Assembly (NCBI RefSeq): GCF_000447795.1
Contig: NZ_AUNI01000014.1
Location: 124,001 to 188,000 of the forward strand
Direction: 5' to 3'
Length of the DNA: 64,000 nt
From: Bacteriovorax sp. Seq25_V
GTDB lineage: Bacteria > Bdellovibrionota > Bacteriovoracia > Bacteriovoracales > Bacteriovoracaceae
The notes under the pieces were generated by a model that worked only from the letters and a program-made list of their open reading frames with translations, was not told the origin of the DNA and ran no database searches. The translations under genes were made by a program, and so were the position numbers. How positions within the stretch are numbered: position 1 is the first letter of the stretch; every line of letters begins with the position of its first letter. Below, in pieces: positions 1,468-61,826 of this stretch.

Positions 1468-3774
1468 ATGAAAAAAACACTCTTAAGTCTTTCAACTATC
1501 GGATTAATCACGGGCCCTACGTATGGTCAGTTTAATCAATTCAAATCTCCAACGAAATTTGATAAAAGTGAAGCACCTGTTTCAAAACTTCTTGATGAGG
1601 CACCAACTGGAACTGATGTTTTTGGGAGAGAGGCAAAAGATTTACCAAAGACTGATACGAGCTACGTAAACCTGAATCCAGAAACTGCTTTTGGACCAGA
1701 AGTTATTACAAGCTTTGACTTCCCTAATACTTCTCTTCAAGACCTAACTAAGCACATGCAAAAGCTTACTGGTCTTAATCTTATTATCGATAAAGATTTA
1801 AAAGGAAAGATTTCAATCTCAGCACCTACTCCAATTACAGTTGGTGATGCATGGAAAGCATTCCTATCAGCATTAAATATGAATGGTCTTACAATGGTTA
1901 AGAGTGGTGCCTTTTATAAGATTGTTCAAGCTAGAGACATTAGATACGTTCCAACAAAGATCTATACAGGTAATTTTGTTCCAGAAACAGAAAACTACAT
2001 GATGAAAATTATTGCTCTAAAAAATATTGATTCTACTGAAGTTTCAAGAAGTTTTAGACCATTCATGTCTCGTTACGGAAGAATTATCGAAATAAAACAA
2101 ACAAATACAATCATCGTGCAAGACACAGGGGAAAATATCAATCGTCTAATGAGACTGATTAAGTTTATTGACGTCCCAGGGCATGAAGAAACACTTCAAA
2201 TTATCCAAGTTAAGAATACTTCTGCGACAGAAATTGCAAAACTTCTTGATACGATTCTAAAGAAAGACACATCAAAGAAATTTAATGCGACCAATAAGCA
2301 AAACGAAATAATTTCTAAGATTACAGCGGAACCGAGAACAAACTCAATTATCGCGATGGCAAATAATGATGGCGCCAAAAGACTAAGAGACCTCATTGAA
2401 AAACTAGACGTAAAACTAGTTGCTGCAAACAATGAGCAAGTACATGTTTATTACCTCTTCCATGGTGATGCAGAAGAGCTTTCAAAAACTCTTTCAACTC
2501 TTGTGTCGAGCTCTACAAAAACAACAACAGCAAGAACAAGTCGTTTCTCTAGAACAGCAGCTGACGATGGGAACAACTCACTATTTAATGCTGAAGTTAG
2601 AGTAACTGCAGACAAATCAAACAACGCCCTTGTTGTTACAGCCTCTCCTACTGACTGGCTAACGCTTGAGAAAGTTATTACAAAACTAGATGTAAAAAAA
2701 GAACAAGTATTTGTTGAAGGTCTTATCATGGAGACAAATATTTCTAAATCAAGAAATGTTGGTGTAAGTATTATCGGTGCCTATGGTACAGGAAATGCTG
2801 ATAGAGCTGGTTTTGTTGGTGGAGAATCAGGAACAAACCTTCTTAACCTTCTTGGTGGTCAATGGCAAAGCTTAGGTGGTCTATTTGCTGGTGGTGGTAT
2901 CGGTAGCAAAGTAACTACAACAGTTGGTGGACAAGAAGTTACAGTAAAATCTGTTAACGCTCTTATTTCAGCGGTAGCTAACAACGGAAACTCAAACGTA
3001 CTAGCAACTCCACAGTTACTTGTTCAAGACAATACTGAAGGTATTTTTGAAGTTGGTGAAACTGTTCCAGTTCCTGAAAGATCAAATGCAACAAACGGAA
3101 CTTCTACAACATCAATCAAACAACAAAAAGTTGCTTTAACTTTAAAGATCACACCACAGATCAATAAGGTTACACGTTATATTAAAATGAAAATCGATCA
3201 AAAGATTGATGATTTCTCAAATAGACAGCTACCATCAGGTGTTGCATCTGAAGGTGTTGGAACGAATACAAGAAGTACTGTAACAACTGTTACAGTTAGA
3301 GATAGAGATACTATCGCAATGGGTGGTTTAATGAGAGACAAAACTTCTGAATCAGAAAGTAAAGTTCCTCTACTTGGAGATATCCCAGTTCTTGGTTGGC
3401 TATTTAAGAATAAAACTAATCAAGTTGAAAAAGTTAATATGCTATTTTTCTTAACTCCTAAAATTCTTTCAAACTACGAGAAAGATGTTGCAGGAACAGT
3501 TAAAGATGAGCTCAACAGAAGAGCTGCTCACCTTAAAGATGTTCATGCAGGAGAAGATCCATTTGGAACAACAGCTAAAGGTATTTACGAAAAAGCTAAG
3601 AACCAAGAAAATGGTCCTCTTTACAATAAAGAAGATGCTGAATACTTCAAAAAGCAAAATCAAGAAAGTATTCAAAATGAAAATGGTGCAATTCTGGAAT
3701 CATCAAACGATATTCCAGACTACAAGCAATTAACTCAGAAGATCAAAACGAAGCAATCTTCTGTTAAGAAATAA
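1468..3774 (+). CDS. gspD: Type II secretion secretin GspD
   Basis: This is the outer-membrane secretin channel of the type II system. A signal peptide (MKKTLLSLSTIGLITGPTYG) is followed by an N0 domain, then N1-N3 domains with repeated NNAL/TNSI-type motifs. The C-terminal secretin domain carries the glycine-rich gate (about residues 450-500) and the conserved VPLLGDIPVLGWLF motif near 640. At 768 residues it is a little longer than usual. The last 100 residues form a charged Lys/Glu/Gln-rich tail that could contact a pilotin or the outer membrane. It lies between gspC and gspE with short gaps. Confidence 0.97.
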   Translation: MKKTLLSLSTIGLITGPTYGQFNQFKSPTKFDKSEAPVSKLLDEAPTGTDVFGREAKDLPKTDTSYVNLNPETAFGPEVITSFDFPNTSLQDLTKHMQKLTGLNLIIDKDLKGKISISAPTPITVGDAWKAFLSALNMNGLTMVKSGAFYKIVQARDIRYVPTKIYTGNFVPETENYMMKIIALKNIDSTEVSRSFRPFMSRYGRIIEIKQTNTIIVQDTGENINRLMRLIKFIDVPGHEETLQIIQVKNTSATEIAKLLDTILKKDTSKKFNATNKQNEIISKITAEPRTNSIIAMANNDGAKRLRDLIEKLDVKLVAANNEQVHVYYLFHGDAEELSKTLSTLVSSSTKTTTARTSRFSRTAADDGNNSLFNAEVRVTADKSNNALVVTASPTDWLTLEKVITKLDVKKEQVFVEGLIMETNISKSRNVGVSIIGAYGTGNADRAGFVGGESGTNLLNLLGGQWQSLGGLFAGGGIGSKVTTTVGGQEVTVKSVNALISAVANNGNSNVLATPQLLVQDNTEGIFEVGETVPVPERSNATNGTSTTSIKQQKVALTLKITPQINKVTRYIKMKIDQKIDDFSNRQLPSGVASEGVGTNTRSTVTTVTVRDRDTIAMGGLMRDKTSESESKVPLLGDIPVLGWLFKNKTNQVEKVNMLFFLTPKILSNYEKDVAGTVKDELNRRAAHLKDVHAGEDPFGTTAKGIYEKAKNQENGPLYNKEDAEYFKKQNQESIQNENGAILESSNDIPDYKQLTQKIKTKQSSVKK

Positions 3775-3792
3775 CTCATTTAGGAGAATAAA

Positions 3793-5532
3793 TTGAAACT
3801 AACAGAAAATATGCTTCAAAAAGTCGAAGGCCAAAAAGAAAAAATTGGCCAGCTTCTACTAAAGCACACATCTCTTTCAGAAGAGCAGCTTAATGAAGCT
3901 CTACAAATTCAAAGAGAGTCTGGACTTTTAATTGGGGAAATCCTTCTAAAGAAGAACTATATTCATCCTCATGATATTGTCAAAGTTATTTGCCATCAAA
4001 TCGATATCCCATATATTCAGGAAATTGATGTTGATGCTATTGATGTTGATATCATTCACAATATCCCTATCAACTATGCTAAAAATCACGAGTTAATCCC
4101 AATCATTGAAACAGAAAAGAATATCACTGTTATTATGACAGATCCTTTCAATTTTGATGCTATCAATGACCTTAGGGAAATATTTAAAAAAGATATCAAT
4201 GTTATCGTAAGCTCCCCTCTAAAAGTAAACGATGCAATCAATAGAGTTTATGAACGTGCCAACAAGAACATGGTTCAAAGTTTAGAGGATAACTTTGAAG
4301 ATAATCTTGATCTTGATGGGCCAATCGATATTTTAGATGCTGGAGCGGATGAAGCTCCCGTAATTCGTTTTGTTAACTCAATTATTTTTCGTGCCGTAAA
4401 AGAGCGCGCGACAGATATTCACATCGAGCCATATGAGAAAGAATCTGTTTACCGTTTTCGTATCAATCGAGTTATGACTGAAATTCTTAGACAACCATTG
4501 AAAACACATTCTGCAGTTGCTTCAAGAATTAAAGTTATGGCAAAACTTGATATTGCGGAAAAACGTTTACCGCAAGATGGTCGTATACCAATTAAAATCG
4601 CAGGAAAAGATATTGATATCAGACTTTCAACTGTTCCAGTTGGAAACGGCGAAAGAATCGTAATGAGGGTTCTTGAAAAAAACAATAATATCTTACGCCT
4701 TGAAAACCTTGGCTTCCACGGACAAGTACTTACTGACCTCGACGACCTTTCTTCGAGAAAGCACGGAGTTGTTTACGTCTCGGGTCCAACAGGTCATGGG
4801 AAGACAACTACTCTATTCGCGATGCTAGATCGTATTAATACGCCAGATAGAATGATCATCACTGTTGAAGATCCAGTTGAATACGAAATTCCAGGAATTT
4901 CACAAATTCAAGTAAATCACAAGATTGATCTCTCTTTTGCAAAAGCACTAAGAGCAATTTTAAGGCAGAACCCTGATGTTATCATGGTTGGGGAAACCAG
5001 AGACCAAGAAACAGCAGAGATGGCACTTCAAGCATCTTTAACTGGTCACTTTGTTCTTTCTACAATTCACACGAACGACGCTTCATCTGTACCTAATAGA
5101 TTGATTGATATGGATGTTCAACCGTTCATGATTGCTTCTTCACTCGCTGGAGTTCTTGCTCAACGTCTTATTAGAACGCTTTGCAAAGAGTGTAAAACTC
5201 CTAAGAAAGTAACTAAGTACGATCTTGAAGTTCTTGGTATTGATTCAATGCCAAAGAATGCGGAACTCTATGAGTCTCATGGCTGTCCAAAGTGTGACTA
5301 TAAAGGTTATGATGGAGTAACAGTTGTTTGCGAGCTTCTGATGATTAATGATGAGATTAGAACTTTAATCATTAACAAAGCGGATGCAGGGAAAGTTAAG
5401 AAAGCCGCCCAAAAATATGGGATGAAAACTCTTAGACAAGATGCAATTGAGAAAGTTTTGATGGGAATTACTTCTGTCGACGAGATGGTAAGAGCTATCA
5501 ACGTTGAAGAAGAAAATGAAGAAGAAGAATAA
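3793..5532 (+). CDS. gspE: Type II secretion ATPase GspE
   Basis: GspE is the cytoplasmic hexameric ATPase that powers pseudopilus assembly. The N-terminal T2SSE_N region (about 1-150) binds GspL. The Walker A loop is at residues 331-339 (GPTGHGKTT, Lys337), where His replaces the usual Ser. The Asp/Glu boxes and the Walker B-like GETRD follow at about 357-404. Four cysteines in two CxxC pairs (464/467 and 498/501) make the zinc module typical of GspE rather than of every PilB-like ATPase. The start is a TTG with AGGAGAA just upstream. Two bases separate its stop from gspF, which suggests coupled translation. Confidence 0.97.
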   Translation: MKLTENMLQKVEGQKEKIGQLLLKHTSLSEEQLNEALQIQRESGLLIGEILLKKNYIHPHDIVKVICHQIDIPYIQEIDVDAIDVDIIHNIPINYAKNHELIPIIETEKNITVIMTDPFNFDAINDLREIFKKDINVIVSSPLKVNDAINRVYERANKNMVQSLEDNFEDNLDLDGPIDILDAGADEAPVIRFVNSIIFRAVKERATDIHIEPYEKESVYRFRINRVMTEILRQPLKTHSAVASRIKVMAKLDIAEKRLPQDGRIPIKIAGKDIDIRLSTVPVGNGERIVMRVLEKNNNILRLENLGFHGQVLTDLDDLSSRKHGVVYVSGPTGHGKTTTLFAMLDRINTPDRMIITVEDPVEYEIPGISQIQVNHKIDLSFAKALRAILRQNPDVIMVGETRDQETAEMALQASLTGHFVLSTIHTNDASSVPNRLIDMDVQPFMIASSLAGVLAQRLIRTLCKECKTPKKVTKYDLEVLGIDSMPKNAELYESHGCPKCDYKGYDGVTVVCELLMINDEIRTLIINKADAGKVKKAAQKYGMKTLRQDAIEKVLMGITSVDEMVRAINVEEENEEEE

Positions 5533-51007: not shown

Positions 51008-53278
51008 ATGAAGCGATTAGTAAAGTATTTGGGGATATTCATTATCGTCATGTTCTCCGTTGTGAGTGTTTATCTCTCGATGATCTATCGTAGTATTCCT
51101 GAACAGAGTAGCCTCAAAGAAGTTTTTCTCTATACCACGTTCTTTGAAGATCGATTTTTTGACCTTAGAATGAAACAAACAATTGACGAGACTGTTAAAG
51201 ACGATCGCATGGTTTTAGCAGATATTGACGACTACTCCATTAGGAATCTAGGATCATGGCCAATCGACAGAAGTAACTGGGCGACTTTAATTGAAAAGCT
51301 TAAGCTCTATGGAGCAAAAATTATCGCCTTCGATGTTTTCTTCTCTGAGGAAAGTAAGACATGTAACGGTTTTAATCCTGACGATGAGCTAGCGAGAGCA
51401 ATCGAAAGTTTTCATGAAATTCCAAACAATAGAGTTATACTCCCATACAACCTCGATCTTGCAGGTTCTGAAAATTTTGAAACAACACCAGAAGATCTTT
51501 ATGGCTTCAGCTTTACAAGTAAAACTGGCGGAGAGGCCTATGAACTTTTACCTACGACTGTTTCAACTTCCGTTTATCCAATTAGGAAACTCATAGATGC
51601 TGAACCTTCATTAGGTTTTATTGAAGCTCGTGCTGATAAAGACGGTATTATGAGACATTACCGTGCATTAGCAAATATTTACAAAGAAATTTACGTTCCT
51701 TCATATGGCCTAAGTGTTTATCAACATACAACAGGAGAACTTGAAGAAGGTGCCGCTGAAAATGGAGTAAAAGGCACATCTTTGAATCTTTTAACACTTG
51801 ATGAGCCGTACATTGAAACAGAGAAAGGAAAAGTATATCTCAATGAAATTGGAGAAACAAAGATGCGCTGGAGTGGAGGTATTCAAAAATTCCCACGCGC
51901 TTCAATTTATGACATCATCTCAAAGGCTGATGATGATCAAGAAATGCATGAAATGTTTAAGAATAAAATTGTCTTCGTTGGAGCTTCTGCTTTTGGTGCC
52001 TACGATCTACGACATACCCCTATAGACCCAATGCTACCAGGAGTCTATTTCCACATGAACTTCACAAAAATGCTTCTTGATGGAAACTTCCTACAACCAT
52101 TCTCTGAGTCAGTTAAGTACTCATGGGCCCTACTTCTCATCTCTGTTTTATTATTACTATTAATCCAACTTCGAGAAAACCCGGTATTAGATATTTTTAC
52201 TGTTGTAGTTATTCTAGGCTCAGTTTACTACTGGGATACATATTATCTCATCCCAAAGGGTTACGAAAACAGACTATTTTTCTGCTTTCTGGCTGTTATC
52301 GGTTGTTACTCATGGAATACATTCGTGCATTTCTATATGGCAAACCAAGACAAGGCCTTCTTAAAAAATGCTTTTGGAAACTATATCTCGCCAGAACTTA
52401 TTGATGAAATGTATTCAACAGGAGAACCTCCAAAACTTGGAGGAGACAGTGGGATCAGAACAGCTTTTTTTACAGATATTCAGGGATTTTCAACCTTCTC
52501 AGAAAAACTTTCACCTACTCAGCTTGTAGAGCTTTTAAATGAATACCTCACGGTCATGACAGATATTCTCCTGGAAGAGAAAGGAACACTGGATAAGTAT
52601 GAAGGTGACGCTATTATCGCCTTCTTTGGTGCGCCAATGCCACTTGAAGATCACGCCCGCCGAGCATGTATTGTTGCTCATCGTATGCAGATGGCCTTAT
52701 TAAAATTACGTGATAAATGGACCGCCGAAGGTGATAAATGGCCAAAGATTGTTCACGATATGAGAATGAGAATTGGGCTTAATTCAGGGGAAATTGTAAC
52801 AGGAAATATGGGTTCAGCTTCACGAATGAACTATACAATGATGGGCGATTCTGTAAACCTTGCTGCTCGCCTTGAAGAATCAGCAAAACAGTATGGAATT
52901 TTTACTCAAGTAGCAAAAGACACAGTTGACCTTGCTGGTGATGAGTTTATTTTTAGAGAACTTGATACTATTCGAGTTGTTGGAAAATCGGTACCTGTTA
53001 CTACTTATGACCTACTCGGATTAAAGGGCGAAAGCGAAGCATTCCTAGAAGAGCTAGCAGAAAAATTTAAAGAAGGGATTGAAAGTTATAAGTCACAACA
53101 ATGGGATAAGGCCATCGCAATTTTCACTTATACTTTAGAACTTGAATATCAACGCTTTCCGGATCTTAAAGGTGTTAAAACAAATCCTTCAGAAATTTAT
53201 ATCAAGCGCTGTGAGGACTATAAGAAATTGCCACCTCCACCAGAGTGGGATGGAGTGTTTACGCTAACAAGTAAGTAA
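51008..53278 (+). CDS. CHASE2-domain adenylate cyclase
   Basis: One N-terminal membrane helix (about 8-28) leads to an extracytoplasmic CHASE2 sensor (about 40-365), then three membrane helices (370-440) and a class III cyclase domain. Metal-binding Asp490 (FFTDIQGFS) and Asp534 (YEGDAI) are intact. Lys530 and Asp614 specify ATP, and Asn617/Arg621 stabilise the transition state. It therefore probably makes cyclic AMP. A short helical tail (about 670-756) follows. It is the last gene of the module that contains FecR and TPR/barrel proteins. Confidence 0.95.
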   Translation: MKRLVKYLGIFIIVMFSVVSVYLSMIYRSIPEQSSLKEVFLYTTFFEDRFFDLRMKQTIDETVKDDRMVLADIDDYSIRNLGSWPIDRSNWATLIEKLKLYGAKIIAFDVFFSEESKTCNGFNPDDELARAIESFHEIPNNRVILPYNLDLAGSENFETTPEDLYGFSFTSKTGGEAYELLPTTVSTSVYPIRKLIDAEPSLGFIEARADKDGIMRHYRALANIYKEIYVPSYGLSVYQHTTGELEEGAAENGVKGTSLNLLTLDEPYIETEKGKVYLNEIGETKMRWSGGIQKFPRASIYDIISKADDDQEMHEMFKNKIVFVGASAFGAYDLRHTPIDPMLPGVYFHMNFTKMLLDGNFLQPFSESVKYSWALLLISVLLLLLIQLRENPVLDIFTVVVILGSVYYWDTYYLIPKGYENRLFFCFLAVIGCYSWNTFVHFYMANQDKAFLKNAFGNYISPELIDEMYSTGEPPKLGGDSGIRTAFFTDIQGFSTFSEKLSPTQLVELLNEYLTVMTDILLEEKGTLDKYEGDAIIAFFGAPMPLEDHARRACIVAHRMQMALLKLRDKWTAEGDKWPKIVHDMRMRIGLNSGEIVTGNMGSASRMNYTMMGDSVNLAARLEESAKQYGIFTQVAKDTVDLAGDEFIFRELDTIRVVGKSVPVTTYDLLGLKGESEAFLEELAEKFKEGIESYKSQQWDKAIAIFTYTLELEYQRFPDLKGVKTNPSEIYIKRCEDYKKLPPPPEWDGVFTLTSK

Positions 53279-58531: not shown

Positions 58532-58555
58532 GGCCAGCATAGCTGGCCTTTTTTT
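58532..58555 (+). terminator. Strong intrinsic terminator after fbaA
   Basis: GGCCAGC (58532-58538) and GCTGGCC (58542-58548) pair around ATA and are followed by seven T. A textbook Rho-independent terminator; the T-run reaches the stop of the convergent receiver gene. Confidence 0.92.
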
Positions 58556-58970
58556 ATTCGTCTGCCTCCGCAAGCTCCCAAATTCGAAGGATAATTTGCT
58601 CCAGATCATGAACAAAGAATGGCTTCAAGAAAAATTCTGTAACGACTCCTAATTCTAAATACCGCTTCTTATCAGCAGGATTATCACTTGAAGTTAAAAT
58701 AAAAACAGGAAATTCTTTTAAAACCATCAAATTCTCGACCAAGAAATTATAAGAAGTGGAACCAGCGATACTAATATCAAAAATAAAAACACTTCTACTA
58801 TTCTCAAAACTTCCATACTGTAGAAGGGCCTCGGTTGTCATATGCGCAACATATTCTATTTTTATATCTTTTTTTATATGAATATTTTCTATCGCCTTTT
58901 TAAAAAGGAGCTGATCGAACTCATCATCTTCAATAAAGTTATAAATTCTTACTTCTTGATTGCGATCCAA
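58554..58970 (-). CDS. Single-domain response regulator, partner of the ETR1-like kinase
   Basis: This is a receiver of 138 residues. Acidic pocket EDD at 14-16, phospho-Asp65 in FIFDISIAGS, Thr93 in ILTSSD, and Lys116 in FFLKPF. No output domain. It overlaps the end of the upstream kinase gene by 22 bases, so the two are surely made together. It may relay phosphate onward to another protein. Confidence 0.93.
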   Translation of the reverse strand: MDRNQEVRIYNFIEDDEFDQLLFKKAIENIHIKKDIKIEYVAHMTTEALLQYGSFENSRSVFIFDISIAGSTSYNFLVENLMVLKEFPVFILTSSDNPADKKRYLELGVVTEFFLKPFFVHDLEQIILRIWELAEADE

Positions 58971-60691
58971 AAGCTGGCTCCTCCATCATTATTATTAAAG
59001 AAGCCGTAACGAGAATCATGTAATTCAGCAACACGCTCTACAATAGCAAGCCCAACACCAGTCGACTTCTCTTTTGAATAACTTTTAAATATCCCGAAAA
59101 TTTTGTCTTGTATATCTTGAGAGACTCCATCTCCACTATCCTCAACATAAATAATATGTTCACTCGGAGTTTCATAATAGTTTATATTAATATACTTCAA
59201 CTCCTTATTAGAATTATTAAGAGCACGAATTGAATTACTCACAAAATTTTCAAAAACAAGTGACATCTGAAAAGGAATGCATCGTACGTTTTTCTCTGAC
59301 GGAACATTGAAATTAAATGAGATCAGGGGGTTTTCCATTTTTACTGTGTTAATGAATGTATAAAATAATTTATCAAGAGGTGTTTCGATAAACTTTTCTT
59401 TCTTCAAGTTTGCGACTTTCAAAATCCCTTCAACTAGTTCCCTAGCTCGTTGACAACTTGAATTGATGATCTCAACATACTTTTGCCTTTCATCTGGTAC
59501 TTCTAAATCCTTTAACAAGAGATTTGTAAAACTCGATATATGCCTAATTGGGGCTTGCAAATCATGAGAAATAAAATATATAAACTCCTCAAGATCTTTA
59601 GTTAACGCTTCTAGTTCTTGATTTTTTTCTACAAGAATTCTCTCCTGTTTGGATCGTTCTGTATTATCAGTAACCATAGTAAAGAAGCCTTCAACTTTGC
59701 CATGCAAGATATAAGGAAGATAAGAAACATTAAATGTAACGGGGCCATTTTCAGTCTCTAAACTAGTTTCAAAATTAACCGCCTCTCCGGCCAATGCCCG
59801 ATTGATATAAGGAAGAATATTTTCAAATAAAGAAGGAGGAAGAACCTCCTTAATAGAGTGGCCAATCATTTGCTCGACACTTTTCCCCCACGTACTCTCA
59901 TATGGCTTATTTACCAGTAAATACTTTAAGTTTTTTGAAACAATAGAAATGAGCGCAGGTACTTTATTTAAAACAAGATTAATCATTGCCTCATTTTGAT
60001 CATGGGCATCCTGTAACCTTTTAGCTTCTGTCACAATTTTAAAGATACAAATCTGGTCTGATTTTCGATGAACTATAGTGACTTTGATAAATTCTTCATT
60101 AACATTATAAACGTTATCATTTATGAAGTCTTGCCCATTGATATCGAATTTATCCTTAAATAGATCAGTGCCAGCATCAGCAGGAATAGGACCAAGAATG
60201 GTTTTAAATTTATCAGAGAGGTGCATATACTTAATTCTGTTCAAACTGCTGTCACAAATCATATAACCATCTACAATTTCATTTAAAATCGTCGAAAGCT
60301 CGTGTTCATCTTCAATTGCCAAAACATTAAAGTCTTTAACATCCCCAAGTCTTTTAAGCATTCTCGAGGCATACACGACCGTGGCAAGGGAGATAATTGC
60401 TGTTGCCATTTTTATGAGTCCAGTCGTGAAATATATGGGGAGCCAAATGGAAATAACCTCTAGAAAATGGGTAAGACCACAAAAAATGATAAATAGCTGA
60501 AATAAACGGAAGATGAGAATATTTGACAAATCTCTTCTCTTTGCTATGAAATTTTGAATGGCCAAAGGAATTAACATATAAGCAATGAATATCAGGGAAT
60601 CTGATAATGCATGTAATGCTAGTATATCCTTCCTCCAAAGGTAACAAAAACCATGGGGCATGAAATCTGGGAGATTGTACATATTAGACAT
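58949..60691 (-). CDS. Histidine kinase with ETR1-like ethylene-binding membrane domain
   Basis: Residues 28-112 form three membrane helices that match the plant ETR1 sensor. TM1 is SDSLIFIAYMLIP (Asp31, Tyr38, Ile41, Pro42), TM2 is IIFCGLTH (Ile68, Cys71, His75), and TM3 is MATAIISLATVVY. In ETR1 the equivalents bind copper and ethylene. Then follow a degenerate PAS-like region (about 125-225), a PAS domain (about 235-345) and a short coiled coil. HisKA has phospho-His376 (FISHDLQAPIR), and HATPase_c has N482, EDSGDGVS at 517-524 and GVGLAIVE at 545-552. Kinase motifs are intact. It is followed by its receiver, and a divergent receiver-kinase gene lies 58 bases upstream. Confidence 0.92.
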   Translation of the reverse strand: MSNMYNLPDFMPHGFCYLWRKDILALHALSDSLIFIAYMLIPLAIQNFIAKRRDLSNILIFRLFQLFIIFCGLTHFLEVISIWLPIYFTTGLIKMATAIISLATVVYASRMLKRLGDVKDFNVLAIEDEHELSTILNEIVDGYMICDSSLNRIKYMHLSDKFKTILGPIPADAGTDLFKDKFDINGQDFINDNVYNVNEEFIKVTIVHRKSDQICIFKIVTEAKRLQDAHDQNEAMINLVLNKVPALISIVSKNLKYLLVNKPYESTWGKSVEQMIGHSIKEVLPPSLFENILPYINRALAGEAVNFETSLETENGPVTFNVSYLPYILHGKVEGFFTMVTDNTERSKQERILVEKNQELEALTKDLEEFIYFISHDLQAPIRHISSFTNLLLKDLEVPDERQKYVEIINSSCQRARELVEGILKVANLKKEKFIETPLDKLFYTFINTVKMENPLISFNFNVPSEKNVRCIPFQMSLVFENFVSNSIRALNNSNKELKYININYYETPSEHIIYVEDSGDGVSQDIQDKIFGIFKSYSKEKSTGVGLAIVERVAELHDSRYGFFNNNDGGASFWIAIKK

Positions 60692-60749
60692 CCATATTAA
60701 AATAATATTAGTTTAATCATAACAACCCTTCAGACAAATGAGAAGAGAA

Positions 60750-61826
60750 ATGAACGTGCTACTAATTGAGGATGACAAAATAGATCAGCTCCACCTGAGA
60801 AGTATCTTATTAGATGCCTACCCAGAGATCGAGCTCTCGATTGCTGAATCGATATCAGATGCAAAGGGCTATCTCGATCAAAACAGATATGATCTTATTA
60901 TGTCTGATTACTATCTAAATGAGGAGAGCCTCGACTATCGAATGCTCAATAAACTTAACTCAATTAATACTCCTGTGATTATCACTTCTGGTCGCCTTGA
61001 ATACGAGTTCTCCAAAACATTTAATAAACTCGACCATATTACTTTTATTGATAAATTAGATATTAATAATCGAACACTTCAAACAGTTTTTACAAAACAA
61101 ATAAATGGCGCCAAGAGACAAATAACACTCATGCATGATGCCGAATTATTGAAGAAGAAAGTTGAAATTCTCGATCTCTTTACAAGTGGAATAAGTCACG
61201 ATCTCAAAAATCCATTAAACTCTATTATTGGACTCGTTGATTATCTTGAAAAAGAACTTGCAACAGACGAAGAGAAAGTTGAAGTTCTAAATATTATAAA
61301 AAGATCTGCTCACGATATAAACGAAACTCTCAACACCTTACTTAACTACGTCAAGCTTGACTACACTTGTGAAACAGATGATTCAATTACATCTAAGAAG
61401 CATATCCAAACAATATATGACGAGGTAAAAGGTCAATTCTCTAAGAGTGTCGTTAACTTTAATATAAATGGCAATGCTCTAATAAATGCTCCTCAAGTGG
61501 CTTTTGATATTATTTTCAAAAACCTTATCTCCAACTCTATTAAGTATAAAACACCAAACAGACCACTTGATATCACCGTTGATATAAGAGAATCATATAA
61601 TGATGGTGTCACAATTATATATAGTGACAATGGTCTTGGATTTACTGAAGAAAACAAAGGAGACATTTTTCTTGCGTTCAAGAGGCTTAATTCATCGAAA
61701 GATACTAAAGGACATGGGATAGGTATGACATTAGTTAAAAAGAGTATTGAACTATGTCACGCAACTATCGACTATGAGTCAACTCCAGGAGTTGGTACTA
61801 CTTTCTATATGAAATTTAGCAAATAA
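60750..61826 (+). CDS. Receiver-histidine kinase hybrid (REC first)
   Basis: The N-terminal receiver (about 1-115) has acidic EDD at 7-9, phospho-Asp53 in LIMSDYYLNE and Lys102 in FIDKLD. The C-terminal kinase has the H-box at His150 (GISHDLKNPLNS), an N-box NLISNSIKYK, DNGLGF and GHGIGMTLV. There is no membrane helix, so it is soluble. ATG 60750 is preferred over 60738 because AGAAGAG lies just before it. It is divergent from the ETR1-like kinase and may receive phosphate from that pathway. Confidence 0.92.
   Translation: MNVLLIEDDKIDQLHLRSILLDAYPEIELSIAESISDAKGYLDQNRYDLIMSDYYLNEESLDYRMLNKLNSINTPVIITSGRLEYEFSKTFNKLDHITFIDKLDINNRTLQTVFTKQINGAKRQITLMHDAELLKKKVEILDLFTSGISHDLKNPLNSIIGLVDYLEKELATDEEKVEVLNIIKRSAHDINETLNTLLNYVKLDYTCETDDSITSKKHIQTIYDEVKGQFSKSVVNFNINGNALINAPQVAFDIIFKNLISNSIKYKTPNRPLDITVDIRESYNDGVTIIYSDNGLGFTEENKGDIFLAFKRLNSSKDTKGHGIGMTLVKKSIELCHATIDYESTPGVGTTFYMKFSK

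Follow-up and report, generated by a model that had tools for sequence, protein, structure and literature searches.

A probable ethylene-receptor histidine kinase with an adjoining response regulator in Bacteriovorax sp. Seq25_V

Bdellovibrionota is a phylum known for predators, and a histidine kinase gene of one of its members, Bacteriovorax sp. Seq25_V, raises the question of whether these bacteria perceive ethylene. The gene lies in a 64,000-nucleotide window of contig NZ_AUNI01000014.1. A preliminary description had read it as a histidine kinase carrying an ETR1-type ethylene-binding domain. Reading frame, strand and coordinates were correct (Table 1), and the domain assignment is borne out by a profile match, by conserved residues and by a three-helix model of high confidence. 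As analysed below, the gene likely codes for a bacterial ethylene receptor akin to AzoEtr1 and SynEtr1. The genome holds a single copy of such an ETR1_N kinase.

Table 1. Features of the receptor locus, with positions in the window.
Feature	Position	Strand	Basis
Receptor histidine kinase, 580 aa, ATG start	58949..60691	-	ORF, Pfam, full-length model (mean pLDDT 87)
PHGFC motif, residues 12-16 (H13, C16), just before TM1	60644..60658	-	Conservation among relatives
ETR1_N ethylene-binding domain, residues 23-115	60347..60625	-	PF25487, E=4.2e-26; residue check; three modelled helices
Probable first PAS fold, residues about 142-219	60035..60268	-	Model strands and helices; too divergent for Pfam, which misses it
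Second PAS domain (PAS_4), residues 241-347	59651..59971	-	PF08448, E=1.6e-14
HisKA, residues 367-429, phospho-acceptor H376 (SHDLQAP)	59405..59593	-	PF00512, E=9.7e-10; motif positions
HATPase_c, residues 476-579	58955..59266	-	PF02518, E=1.3e-12
Single-domain response regulator, 138 aa, D65 in FIFDIS, TTG start	58554..58970	-	PF00072, E=0.0012, below Pfam cut-off
GGAGGA Shine-Dalgarno-like sequence, 8 nt before regulator TTG	58979..58984	-	Sequence read
Divergent intergenic region between the two kinases, 46 bp	60692..60737		ORF ends
Divergent receiver-histidine kinase (REC-HisKA-HATPase), 362 aa, D57, H154	60738..61826	+	Pfam; receiver part below cut-off

The binding domain was evaluated using profile, residue and structural comparisons. 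The search against the ethylene-receptor family that had been suggested as a check returned ETR1_N at an E value that is not due to chance, scoring 91.5 bits where the cut-off is 27. The residues on which the proposal rested, D31, Y38, I41, P42, I68, C71 and H75, were all found where they had been placed, at a constant offset of +6 to Arabidopsis ETR1, whose numbering (D25/C65/H69/K91) agrees with PMC11819568. The gap-free spacing claimed for this comparison held through H75 and failed beyond it: K94, the counterpart of ETR1 K91, follows a TM2-TM3 loop that is three residues shorter (H75 to K94, 19 residues; ETR1 H69 to K91, 22). Likeness to ETR1 in the third helix was indeed present, in the C-terminal part of TM3 (TAIISLAT). 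Using BLASTP, the domain was 30% identical to an approximate ETR1 sequence (E=5e-9). With the exception of P42, the binding residues and the lysine ranked among the positions that vary least across Bdellovibrionota.

An AlphaFold2 model of the domain, built with 51 natural sequences, contained helices at residues 21-51, 58-83 and 87-116 (pLDDT mostly >95, mean 88.6). Conservation was one-sided on each helix, with moments at p = 0.0002 for TM1, 0.003 for TM2 and 0.0002 for TM3, and on a helical wheel the key residues lay no more than 70 degrees from the conserved side of the helix that bears them, a clustering consistent with residues that face a common site. Among solved structures, the domain had no relative by sequence and no significant fold match. 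The closest sequence compared was at most 53% identical, and the domain occupied a long, unplaced branch (length 1.01), a divergence that counts against the receptor reading given below.

Based on Pfam and the full-length model (pTM 0.52), the binding domain is followed by a probable PAS fold, a PAS domain, HisKA and HATPase_c. The first PAS region gave only a sub-threshold PAS_8 match in Pfam, covering residues 132-176. Motif positions indicated that the N, G1 and G2 boxes of the kinase are intact. The downstream regulator starts inside the 3' end of the kinase gene, the two overlapping by 22 nt, and contains the acidic pair, Asp (D65), Thr and Lys motifs; among relatives it had no clear ortholog (best E 3e-6). 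Thus, the kinase has both the intact kinase motifs and the adjoining regulator of an AzoEtr1-type two-component system.

AzoEtr1 of Azospirillum brasilense binds ethylene saturably, its C75A and D35A forms failed to restore function, and it comprises a binding domain, PAS and kinase with an overlapping 135-aa regulator, AzoRR-etr1 (PMC11819568). The Bacteriovorax protein resembles it in domain order, in the overlapping downstream single-domain regulator and in all seven residues. It differs in having two PAS domains rather than one, in the divergent receiver-kinase alongside, in its phylum and in that its ligand is predicted. SynEtr1 (slr1212) of Synechocystis also carries an N-terminal domain of the copper/ethylene type, attached to a kinase that passes its signal to a regulator by phosphorelay, and the Bacteriovorax kinase is predicted to share this plan. 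However, SynEtr1 is also a light receptor (PMC11819568), whereas no light-sensing domain was recognised in the Bacteriovorax kinase. Arabidopsis ETR1, reported as a dimer with one Cu(I) per monomer (PMC6586836), shares the three helices, the seven residues and the lysine. In ETR1, a C4/C6 disulfide region takes the place of the N-terminal PHGFC, a GAF domain that of the PAS domains, and a C-terminal receiver that of the separate regulator gene.

Since AzoEtr1 shares its domain order and overlapping regulator, the kinase belongs to a known kind and is a clear further case of a bacterial family in a little-explored phylum. Copper(I)/ethylene sensing is well supported by homology because AzoEtr1, of the same architecture, binds ethylene, and the kinase is probably a copper(I)-dependent ethylene sensor. 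We infer the following mechanism, including its metal, ligand, direction of response, partners and output. The three N-terminal helices would hold Cu(I) via C71 and H75, with D31 positioning, and ethylene or another small olefin would bind this Cu(I). Ligand binding would alter helix packing, a change that may reach the cytosolic HisKA/HATPase by way of K94 in TM3 and both PAS domains. The kinase would then alter phosphate transfer to the overlapping regulator, with the receiver of the divergent receiver-kinase as a possible second phosphate target. To our knowledge, no member of the Bdellovibrionota has been assayed for ethylene binding, and a literature search on Bdellovibrio and ethylene receptors returned only unrelated papers.

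We examined the PHGxC motif, which lies outside the Pfam match, the latter beginning at residue 23. P12, H13, G14 and C16 were kept in 97-98% of site-intact relatives. Among members that retain both C71 and H75, 83 of 86 also have HxxC, compared with 1 of 11 among those lacking either residue (Fisher p = 2e-10, a value that ignores shared descent). The sample was not chosen by motif, its cyanobacterial part consisted of the best-scoring loci only, and the N-terminal columns of the alignment were extended without gaps. As a control for general decay, the 11 site-broken members kept W83 (9/11), K94 (10/11), A98 (11/11) and D31 (8/11); H13 and C16 were each kept in just two. The kinase has F15, whereas most Bdellovibrionota relatives have H15, a difference that counts against the receptor reading, although alphaproteobacteria also have F, Y or M at this position. 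Because of their PHG[FYM]C, an exact HxHC rule was rejected, HxxC describing the motif better. Three helices would put the N-terminus on the far side of the membrane from the cytosolic kinase, so the motif is expected in the periplasm, near the copper site. It is possibly a metal-loading or capping motif and may serve in copper loading.

This linkage of HxxC to the copper residues also bears on the reading that the domain binds Cu(I) and that its natural signal is not ethylene but copper supply, redox state or another Cu(I) ligand such as CO. We consider this unlikely. It would fit the retention of the copper residues in many bacteria without obvious plant contact and the ordinary CopA-type copper ATPase in the genome. 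However, SynEtr1 and AzoEtr1, both bacterial, bind and respond to ethylene (PMC11819568, PMC6682694), and Y38, I41, P42 and I68, which ETR1 needs for ethylene beyond the copper ligands, are kept. That the binding domain is a mere membrane anchor, with the PAS domains driving the kinase, is very improbable: the kinase does have two PAS folds and some relatives without C71 retain a kinase, but all site residues are retained in an otherwise divergent protein, and degenerate relatives lose C71, I68 and PHGxC first.

The genomic setting was compared among relatives. A divergent protein of similar length also adjoins a binding-domain kinase in three further genomes of the family (L010/L214, L038/L215 and L066), with comparable intergenic gaps of 22-61 bp at L214 and L215. 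These neighbours are 25-28% identical to the receiver-kinase of the window; for those at L038 and L066, Pfam reports the ATPase part only, and the receiver and HisKA parts rest on alignment. L066 is a very divergent member of the binding-domain family. In a hand-picked set of 33 scanned neighbouring ORFs of relatives, 21 had a receiver domain. The module formed by the regulator, receptor kinase and receiver-kinase stands between fba and pepN. These two genes also lie close together in four relatives (G050, G048, G051 and G003; L210-L213), where the slot lacks the module and is occupied by different genes, among them one that resembles a fatty-acid desaturase as judged by sequence reading; the module is therefore lineage-specific at that place. 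Thus, the fba-pepN interval is a variable slot, and only this genome among those compared has the receptor module in it. Elsewhere in the window, Pfam identified a CHASE2-adenylate/guanylate cyclase, a membrane sensor some kilobases from the receptor (51008-53278), and type II secretion genes (secretin, T2SSE ATPase) near the window start (1468-5532).

ETR1_N was found above the cut-off in 60 of 369 Bdellovibrionota genomes, 44 of 146 Cyanobacteriota genomes, 20 of 289 genomes sampled from the Alphaproteobacteria (the class of a Rhodospirillales genome) and none of 14 control genomes. Genome contigs gave no match when searched with the whole protein; a motif-based scan with the domain alignment yielded at least 573 loci, the best 80 being mostly cyanobacterial. 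With hundreds of loci, the ETR1_N family is not rare in bacteria. Within the genus, four of six genomes have the domain, on different branches of the domain tree. This tree, of about 100 columns, is poorly resolved and neither places the window's sequence nor points to a donor for transfer; the Bdellovibrionota need nine changes on it, although they may have a single origin. In three relatives, a stop codon or a shift of frame breaks up the binding domain (L014, which carries TAG; L044; and L060, which lies in two frames); these are either pseudogenes or assembly errors.

Finally, stand-alone binding-domain genes were found that directly precede or overlap separate membrane histidine kinase genes. 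At five loci (L013, L015, L016, L017 and L026, of which L026 belongs to the same genus as the window), the domain makes up an entire protein of roughly 125-150 residues, and the kinase gene directly downstream encodes its own 3-4 hydrophobic segments. Together these loci make up one supported clade (99/94). A similar-looking arrangement, with kinases of other types, is seen at L024 and at the alphaproteobacterial L159 and L161, the kinase types of L159 and L161 being assigned without a Pfam check. The recurrence of this layout speaks against sequencing errors as its general cause, if not in every individual instance. Such pairs are possibly two-protein ethylene receptors. No report of this split layout was seen in the literature consulted for the receptor kinase.

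These results likely extend ethylene perception to the Bdellovibrionota. For predatory life, and for ethylene as a cue to algae, plants or biofilms, the data gave neither support nor contradiction. More tentatively, and with considerable doubt, copper-ethylene sensing in this phylum might be common, exchangeable and built in both one-piece and two-protein forms, such that bacteria of a predatory phylum could detect ethylene released by neighbouring organisms, photosynthetic or otherwise. ETR1 lacks an experimental high-resolution structure of its ethylene-binding membrane domain (PMC13012798), and the small stand-alone versions of the domain may be useful toward one. The PHGxC motif, in turn, provides a testable idea of how copper may enter these receptors.
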